64,000 bases of DNA from Geobacteraceae bacterium. GTDB lineage: Bacteria; Desulfobacterota; Desulfuromonadia; Desulfuromonadales; BM103. Below are positions 26,752-39,697 of this stretch, one piece after another. Made by a program: the position numbers and the translations under genes. The notes beneath the pieces are model-generated. The model was not told the DNA's origin, did no database searches, and saw only the letters and a program-made list of their open reading frames with translations. The stretch is taken from positions 1-64,000 of the forward strand of contig JAHEDT010000001.1 of the NCBI GenBank assembly GCA_024641085.1. The letters run 5' to 3'. Numbering within the stretch: position 1 is the stretch's first letter; every line of letters begins with the position of its first letter.

Positions 26752-26785
26752 AAACAGGGCTTCGATATTAGTCGAAGCCCTGTTT
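26752..26785. terminator. Strong hairpin terminator at the 3' end of mrcA
   Basis: A perfect 14-bp stem (AAACAGGGCTTCGA / TCGAAGCCCTGTTT) with a 6-base loop lies 27 bases after the mrcA stop. Read on the minus strand it is followed by a short T run, so it should terminate mrcA. It may also stop plus-strand transcripts. Confidence 0.82.
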
Positions 26786-38274: not shown

Positions 38275-38350
38275 GTGCCGCTAGCTCAGTAGGTAGAGCA
38301 TCTGACTTTTAATCAGATGGTCGTAGGTTCGATCCCTACGCGGCACACCA
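38275..38350 (+). tRNA. tRNA-Lys (anticodon TTT)
   Basis: A 76-base tRNA with a 7-bp acceptor stem (GTGCCGC/GCGGCAC), an anticodon stem ATCTGA/TCAGAT enclosing CTTTTAA (anticodon TTT), the T-loop GGTTCGATCC and an encoded CCA. It shares a promoter with tRNA-Glu 55 bases downstream. Confidence 0.97.
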
Positions 38351-38405: not shown

Positions 38406-38483
38406 GTCCCTATCGTCTAGCCTGGCCCAGGACACCGGCCTTTCACGCCGGCGACGGGGGTTCGAATCCCCCTGGGGACGCCA
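38406..38483 (+). tRNA. tRNA-Glu (anticodon TTC)
   Basis: A 78-base tRNA with acceptor GTCCCTA/TGGGGAC and an anticodon stem CCGGC/GCCGG enclosing CTTTCAC (anticodon TTC). The T arm is GGGGGTTCGAATCCCCC and CCA is encoded. It is followed by a terminator. Confidence 0.97.
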
Positions 38484-38492
38484 CAAAAAGTC

Positions 38493-38526
38493 AAAAGCCC
38501 TTCCGTTTCATGCGGAGGGGCTTTTT
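38493..38526 (+). terminator. Rho-independent terminator after the tRNA pair
   Basis: A 12-bp stem (AAAGCCCTTCCG / CGGAGGGGCTTT, one G-T pair) with a 7-base loop and a T run lies 10 bases after tRNA-Glu. Confidence 0.88.
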
Positions 38527-38660
38527 GCGTTGGTGGAGGTGTTTGCTGGTGCGAGGGCAAGGGTCGCAATTACAATCCGGGTTTGATTTGTGGCTTCTTC
38601 TGAAAGACTTTTTGCCTGGCAGAGGCCTTTCAGACGTTGCGTAGCCTAAAATTCACGTTT

Positions 38661-38689
38661 TTTTCACAATTTTTCCACGCTTCTATAAC
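38661..38689 (+). promoter_or_regulatory. Putative promoter of a small RNA
   Basis: TTTTCA (38661-38666) and TATAAC (38684-38689) are separated by 17 bases in an AT-rich stretch. The predicted start is near 38696, about 200 bases before a strong terminator and with no gene between. Confidence 0.5.
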
Positions 38690-38695
38690 ACTCGG

Positions 38696-38901
38696 TCCTT
38701 TAATATGCAGACCATATAAGAACTTCAACCACTGGCGTGTCGCTGTCCCAGAGCCATTGAGCGGAATCCTGACCGCTTCAAATGGCACTACCACTCTGGA
38801 ACGAAACAAGTGGTCGAGGTTTCGAAAAGAACCAGCGCTGTTTCATCATCCACAATCATTTGCCTCCAGGGTCTCAATTAGTTTTTTGAGACCCTTTTTT
38901 T
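38696..38901 (+). ncRNA. Candidate ~200-nt small RNA
   Basis: A promoter-like signal and a strong terminator bracket about 206 bases with no credible frame. The segment folds into a long rod: an outer stem (AACTTCAACCACT with AGTGGTCGAGGTT), an internal loop, then CCAGAG/CTCTGG and CCATT-GAGCGG/CCGCTTC-A-AATGG around an apical loop. Length and rod shape resemble 6S RNA, but I cannot confirm conserved 6S positions. It may be another family or a new one. Confidence 0.5.
38869..38901 (+). terminator. Strong rho-independent terminator
   Basis: A perfect 9-bp stem (GGGTCTCAA / TTGAGACCC) with an 8-base loop is followed by seven T. No protein gene lies upstream as far as the tRNA terminator, so it should end a non-coding transcript. 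Confidence 0.88.
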
Positions 38902-39116
38902 GCGCTTGTTGTGCAACCGATTGATCAAAATTGATCGGGATGCCCGGATTGACCCTGTCCAAAAGGGTTCACGACGACGGGAGGCCCCCAGGAACGTCTC
39001 ACAGTCAAAAGGTCTTACACAGCACAATTGGCGGAGCTTTATGCGTAGCAGGTTCTTCCCGGGCCACCGCCAAGGGACTTCTCGCAAAAATCTGACAAAA
39101 GCGCGATGGAGCCGGC
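38902..39116. other. Intergenic stretch before mscL, nothing recognised
   Basis: About 215 bases between the small-RNA terminator and the mscL promoter. Short frames exist but have no ribosome site or family likeness. I see no further RNA or repeat signal. Confidence 0.4.
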
Positions 39117-39143
39117 TTGATTCTCGCTACGAGCTGTTATAAT
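39117..39143 (+). promoter_or_regulatory. Putative mscL promoter
   Basis: TTGATT (39117-39122) and a perfect TATAAT (39138-39143) lie 15 bases apart, a short spacing. The perfect -10 about 95 bases before mscL makes it the best promoter candidate. Confidence 0.5.
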
Positions 39144-39238
39144 TCTCATCAGCAAGATTATAGTGCATGCGCGTTCAAGCCTGCTTCAGCAGGGGCTGGA
39201 CTCGCCTGGTCCGTTACTTTTGAAAGGAGAATTGAGTC

Positions 39239-39697
39239 ATGGGGATGGTCAAAGAGTTTAAAGAGTTCGCCGTCAAGGGGAATGTGGTCGACATGGCGGT
39301 CGGTATCATCATCGGCGGTGCCTTCGGGACGATCGTCAAGTCCCTGGTCGCCGATGTCATCATGCCGCCCATCGGCATGTTGCTCGGCAATGTCGATTTT
39401 TCAGAGCTTTTCCTGGTTCTCAACAACGGCAGTACGCCAGGGCCCTACGTCACCCTTGCAGATGCGCAGAAGGCTGGCGCCGTGACCATCAACTATGGCC
39501 TTTTCATCAACTCCGTGATCAGTTTCTTGATCGTAGCCTTCGCCGTATTCCTGCTGATCAGGGCGGTCAACAAAATGAAGCGCGAGGAAGTGGCTCCAGC
39601 GGTGGAGCCGACGACCCGCGACTGTCCGTACTGCTACTCGACGATTTCTTTGAAGGCTTCACGCTGCCCTCACTGCACTTCTGAAATCAGCTCCTAG
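39239..39697 (+). CDS. mscL: Large-conductance mechanosensitive channel with C-terminal zinc ribbon
   Basis: Opens under membrane tension to release solutes during osmotic downshock. The 152-residue protein has the N-terminal amphipathic helix, first helix [20 protein letters not shown], a periplasmic loop, the second helix (about 88-110) and the conserved basic cluster NKMKREE. Beyond it lies an added CPYC-x10-CPHC motif (Cys 129, 132, 143, 146), a likely zinc ribbon absent from Escherichia coli MscL. AAAGGAG precedes the ATG. Confidence 0.96.

Follow-up and report, generated by a model that had tools for sequence, protein, structure and literature searches.

The segment at positions 38713–38901 (+ strand) of the window, the whole 64,000-nucleotide stretch of Geobacteraceae DNA that was analyzed, looks like a free-standing small RNA (sRNA) gene of about 190 nt, and from its sequence features there is very little doubt that the gene is real. 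Judged on sequence, the RNA represents a new, previously unnamed sRNA family of a known kind and is not 6S RNA. It probably belongs to an sRNA pair that is activated by a ColR-type regulator, depends on Hfq, and covers Shine-Dalgarno sequences. The comparison of genomes supports the gene itself and its conservation, the operator, the −10 element, the terminator, the siblings, the linkage to colS, and the presence of Hfq, and as read from these parts the regulatory logic is unusually clear. If true, this would add to the known sRNAs a family whose regulator and working parts are both predicted; no such sRNA was found for Desulfuromonadales in the literature searched (sRNAs and Hfq in Geobacter and Desulfuromonadales, and ColR or ColRS together with small RNAs), coverage of which was partial, so that a description could exist.

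The gene lies between tRNA-Lys (38275–38350) and tRNA-Glu (38406–38483), the latter with its own terminator-like hairpin on the 3' side, and mscL (39239–39697), which is on the same strand as the sRNA, in a genome of 3,506,176 bases and 151 contigs. The original prediction of a free-standing sRNA of about 206 nt at 38661–38901 stands as to the kind of gene but not as to its length: because the conserved −10 element is TAATAT at 38701–38706, transcription would start near 38713 and, with the end set by the terminator, would give an RNA of about 190 nt. The earlier start at 38661 also falls within the operator, which begins 9 bases upstream of it at 38652. The absence of a reading frame was borne out, as start and stop columns are common to at most two of the 13 homologues, and a small protein was rejected for this reason. 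A covariance model of the family (R1) scores 181.7 bits at 38703–38904.

The sigma-70-like promoter proposed originally is not supported, and a sigma-70 scan of the + strand reports none there. Alignment of the homologues (A3), together with the published consensus, instead places an operator of four TTCAC-like half-sites with 11-bp spacing at 38652–38689 (+ strand; half-sites at 38652–38656, 38663–38667, 38674–38678, and 38685–38689), followed by the predicted −10 hexamer, which is the TANNNT at operator offset 50–55. The TATAAC at 38685–38690, formerly read as the −10, occupies the position of the fourth regulator half-site, where relatives have (G/A)TCAC. The first two half-sites, TTCACGTTTTTTTCAC (38652–38667), agree at 16/16 positions with the published 16-bp ColR-binding consensus, YYNASNNYTTTTTSAC (PMC2689224), as do all 13 long loci, and all seven short loci agree at 15–16 of 16. 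TANNNT is found at operator offset 50 in 22/22 operator loci, and a conserved −35 is absent from the homologue promoters, with activator repeats in its place.

On its own, the 16-bp consensus is not enriched in this genome (8 matches vs. 10 for the reversed control). The extended operator TTCACNNTNNNTTCACNNTNNNNNNAC has 22 matches, in 14 of the 22 family genomes, with none for the control; every match is a promoter of this RNA family, only two are in this genome, and none occurs in the eight family genomes without the RNA. Downstream, 20 of these 22 loci carry CCTCCnGGG and a T tail, and the other two, both in genome G020, carry TTGCCTCC and a degenerate terminator. These G020 loci (L198 and L199) are extra copies of the RNA in which the operator, −10, and TTGCCTCC are kept and the terminators have decayed, and L198 runs toward a reading frame. 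It is highly likely that this ColR-like regulator controls the RNA, with ColR presumably binding at the predicted operator and expression depending on it.

The conserved parts of the RNA are a hairpin carrying a ACUACCAC bulge, an exposed UUGCCUCC, and the terminator, and mean pairwise identity forms a mosaic (operator 0.91, hairpin 0.78, CCUCC block 0.87, linkers 0.30–0.39). The hairpin, found in the long form only and defined by alignment and pair counts in A3, spans 38747–38800 (+ strand), and its unpaired bulge, ACTACCAC at 38787–38794, contains an ACCAC that is invariant in 13/13 members, with an unpaired probability of 0.65–0.96 in the predicted folds of these 13. As the seed, we propose TTTGCCTCC at 38859–38867 (+ strand), which both the long and the short siblings have and whose exposed CCUCC is complementary to the Shine-Dalgarno GGAGG. 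The predicted unpaired probability of CCUCC is 0.56–1.0, with a mean of ∼0.85 vs. ∼0.49 for the whole RNAs, and is above the mean of its own RNA in 20/20 members. The motif occurs once in the RNA of the window and two or three times in several other members. The strong terminator that had been noted was recovered by a terminator scan at 38868–38901 (+ strand), with a stem at 38868–38895 followed by a T-run to 38901, and in four of its nine pairs both bases vary with pairing retained.

The segment folds at −58.5 kcal/mol (z −3.05), surpassing 200/200 dinucleotide shuffles. The long rod described earlier is indeed predicted for the segment, but only the inner hairpin (38747–38800) and the terminator are conserved; the pairing of these two is kept across A3. 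Over the 13 sequences of A3 and the 26 pairs of hairpin and terminator, 94.9% of cells are paired vs. 89.8 in shuffles, and double changes affect 8 pairs and 21 cells vs. 4.4 and 7.3, counts reached by 0 of 500 shuffles. Further pair types are not above shuffles (145/500 reach the observed count), and slid controls are at most 53% paired. These statistics favor the structure as support rather than proof, since the same alignment gave the structure and the sequences are related.

The distribution of the RNA is narrow. BLAST with 246 bases against 58 relatives matched six genomes, the genome's own included, and R1 was built from these six. With R1, 14 of the 22 family genomes match; 13 of the 22 have the long form, at 92–203 bits, namely both members of this genome's genus and 11 of a second genus, and genome G008 has short forms only. 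The promoter, hairpin, exposed motif, and terminator found in these 13 genomes favor the new small RNA that the original prediction had offered as an alternative. At the level of the order, matches at E up to 0.1 come from 17 of 136 genomes, the 14 of the family plus three others with weak matches, and in a draw from the phylum only this genome matches out of 395 at E up to 0.01, under strict filters that lose weak matches. In a named collection of genome contigs, 7 of 16 loci with the hairpin pattern carry the RNA by the model, all under the titles Desulfuromonadales, Geobacteraceae, or Deltaproteobacteria, and the remaining nine look like chance matches (best 10.7 bits). The weak R1 matches within the family are short RNAs that share the promoter and the TGCCTCCGGGG-terminator end of the long form but have no hairpin. 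This genome has one such sibling, at C78:4549-4732, directly behind a ColS-like kinase gene.

Of the 20 RNA loci, 14 have a gene for a ColS-like kinase immediately 5' of them, one per genome in 14/14 genomes; one of these 14 kinases can be seen solely through its final 34 residues, at the end of a contig. The response regulator and histidine kinase at C78 are 70.9 and 46.8% identical to colRS of a locus in G024, where the gene order is eptA-colS-colR. From this order, we take the G024 locus to be the Pelobacter carbinolicus locus with predicted ColR sites. In the available part of its description, the P. carbinolicus ColR is 65% identical to a P. putida homologue, overlapping ColR sites followed by inverted repeats lie 5' of an atp operon, and the sequence on the atp side aligns with sequence 5' of eptA (PMC3543383). 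Because the first-ranked NCBIfam match of the regulator, PmrA, is below its cut-off, with no ColR model among the 25 families listed, the designation ColR-type rests on locus, identity, and operator. In P. putida, ColRS is described in the accessible portion of one report as responding to excess zinc, iron, manganese, and cadmium (PMC4074579), so metal or envelope stress would be the likely signal.

The ColR-type promoter that follows colS in G024 and in G036 leads into an eptA-like gene (identified by eye in G036). Within the family, eptA is present in four of the 22 genomes, and in the three of these that bear the RNA it is on a different contig from that of colS. This distribution hints at a replacement of eptA by the RNA, an evolutionary swap in which the protein-gene target of a regulator gave way to an RNA. 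A wider account, which we put forward tentatively and which falls somewhat short of being probable, is that the ColRS-like system of this lineage has had its eptA target replaced by an RNA output and acts chiefly as an sRNA switch that reshapes translation through the masking of Shine-Dalgarno sequences, the kinase-linked sRNA having been duplicated into a long and a short form that are the sole full-operator places in the genome. Some further observations concern eptA. In G014 (L200, contig C129), an eptA gene is preceded by a degenerate short-RNA copy whose operator is TTCACGTTTTACTGAC-like. Between the ColR-type promoter behind colS and eptA in G024, an extended inverted repeat together with T-rich sequence (L070, G024:C1:2018420-2018494) is perhaps an attenuator. 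The eptA homologue of this genome (L208, G000:C70:52017-52469) has an open frame of only 278 aa surrounding its domain match vs. 546–579 aa in three relatives and may be interrupted.

The original prediction compared the segment with 6S RNA, which mimics an open promoter and holds sigma-70 RNA polymerase, and similar length and a rod-like predicted fold do speak for this. A scan with all Rfam models, the check proposed with that comparison, matched only tRNAs in the window, with no RF00013 match at the gathering score, and in 38480–39245 no RF00013 match was found with permissive filters up to E = 10; the permissive scan of this region gave three implausible Rfam matches, none of them 6S. At the gathering score, 19 homologous loci likewise match no Rfam family but tRNA. 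The genome has RF00013 matches above cut-off elsewhere, at C26:90361-90541 and C61:17929-18108 (101.7 and 61.2 bits), which suggest two 6S paralogues, and what is conserved in the segment is an inner hairpin, CCUCC, and an intrinsic terminator beside a tandem-repeat operator. There is next to no chance that the segment is 6S RNA, an identity that is refuted as far as sequence can do so. It is also very improbable that the segment is the 5' leader of mscL: this gene is next on the same strand, at 39239, yet the terminator closes the segment ∼340 bases before it, and what comes after the RNA in the sister genome G001 is not mscL but a gene for a solute-binding protein of the transporter type, so this candidate was rejected.

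The RNA could also be a ColR-activated leader or premature-termination product, in which a terminator made the ancestral eptA promoter yield a dead-end transcript. The promoters behind colS that enter eptA-like genes in G024 and G036, and the degenerate copy upstream of eptA in G014, are in keeping with this; however, the RNA also occurs away from colS, for example behind tRNA-Glu here and in G001, the downstream genes differ, and internal segments are conserved beyond promoter and terminator, which makes such an origin of the transcript unlikely. A regulated sRNA that acts mainly by binding a protein through its hairpin (e.g., by titration of CsrA or of a different RNA-binding protein), with CCUCC secondary, is a more serious contender and is still rather doubtful. 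Conservation is among the highest at the hairpin and its ACCAC bulge, and a search with the bulge complement gives no target signal, with 10 matches in four genomes vs. 82 for the reversed control. Against this, the short siblings lack the hairpin and keep the operator, CCUCC, and terminator, and GGA motifs, examined by eye on A3, are few and not kept in all members; CsrA titration through GGA motifs was rejected on the latter ground.

Pairing with Shine-Dalgarno sequences is somewhat favored as the main mode of action. In the mechanism proposed, a ColS-like kinase would sense envelope or metal stress and phosphorylate ColR, which would bind the four tandem half-sites that stand in place of a −35 and switch on the long RNA together with its short sibling, the latter from the second locus right behind colS. 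The RNA would end in a Rho-independent terminator with a U tail and be held by Hfq, and the exposed UUGCCUCC would pair with GGAGG-type Shine-Dalgarno sequences and keep a group of mRNAs, probably those encoding envelope or transport proteins, from being translated. In the long form, the hairpin with its ACUACCAC bulge may make a second specific contact, with RNA or protein. The genome encodes Hfq (PF17209 at C116:40205-40384, 82.3 bits against a cut-off of 27), and the promoter, terminator with U tail, lack of a conserved frame, and single-stranded seed predicted here are features of trans-acting Hfq-dependent sRNAs. Hfq binding, Shine-Dalgarno blocking, and the mRNA targets are presumed accordingly from the predicted parts.

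Candidate targets were sought as GGAGGCAA followed by ATG within 1–11 bases in this genome, G001, and G008, which gave 23, 25, and 27 rows; after removal of overlapping rows and of two rows in this genome antisense to the RNAs, 70 places were kept (21, 24, and 25). Seven of the 21 in this genome precede frames >150 aa. In this limited motif search of 70 places, two motif pairs before long proteins are shared between genomes, one at HemE (by eye; this genome and G008) and one at a LivF-like ABC protein (this genome and G001).

Comparable arrangements are found in other bacteria. The E. coli sRNA MgrR is under PhoPQ control. It is described, in the part of the source available, as an Hfq-dependent sRNA acting on eptB (PMC6239178), and the RNA here resembles it in that a two-component system of the envelope would have an sRNA as its output, the host has Hfq, and the eptA/eptB theme recurs, but differs in showing no sequence relation by Rfam, in having a ColR-like regulator, and in the kinase linkage of one RNA copy. 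The predicted ColR sites and inverted repeats of P. carbinolicus (Pcar_R0094/R0095) are also alike in that the sites overlap and precede the repeats, with one copy beside colRS and eptA; in the available part of the report they are described as features on the 5' side of operons and not as sRNAs (PMC3543383), and no CCUCC-terminator module like that of the sRNA here is present in what is presumably the R0095 region (L070). Two further systems deserve mention, in E. coli and in the alphaproteobacteria. OmrA and OmrB of E. coli are OmpR-controlled sibling sRNAs, and here too there are two siblings, one OmpR-family regulator, and a common conserved module, although this module is the 3' CCUCC and terminator, the loci are unlinked, and the siblings differ by a whole hairpin. 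The CcsR "cuckoo" RNAs of alphaproteobacteria carry an anti-Shine-Dalgarno motif. AbcR1/2 are likewise alphaproteobacterial anti-Shine-Dalgarno sRNAs, as stated in the accessible section of one source (PMC8844928), and both groups share with the present family exposed CCUCC-like motifs, several in some members, but have other regulators and no homology detectable by Rfam, the present family being confined to one family of Desulfuromonadales. For relatives of Geobacter, the family would connect metal or envelope stress to post-transcriptional control in a way that can be tested directly.

Several other loci were set aside. A second R1 match in the window (26755–26781, 15 bits) covers a terminator hairpin only. 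Among the weak matches, L060, L066, L070, and L072 outside the family and L067 inside it are kinase-linked promoters of the ColR type that lack the RNA module, and L063 (G040) has ColR-type repeats at two promoters with the module absent; L064, L065, L069, and L071 were judged non-homologous by eye. The loci of family f6 (L030, L031, and L059; L061 and L062 coincide with L030 and L031) have the end only, TTGCCTC(C/T)GGGG plus a terminator, with no ColR box by eye. Upstream of L030 and L031 lies TTGGCAGACAT-TTGCTT, which we take to be sigma-54-like, and the f6 loci are possibly the same anti-Shine-Dalgarno module under another regulator.
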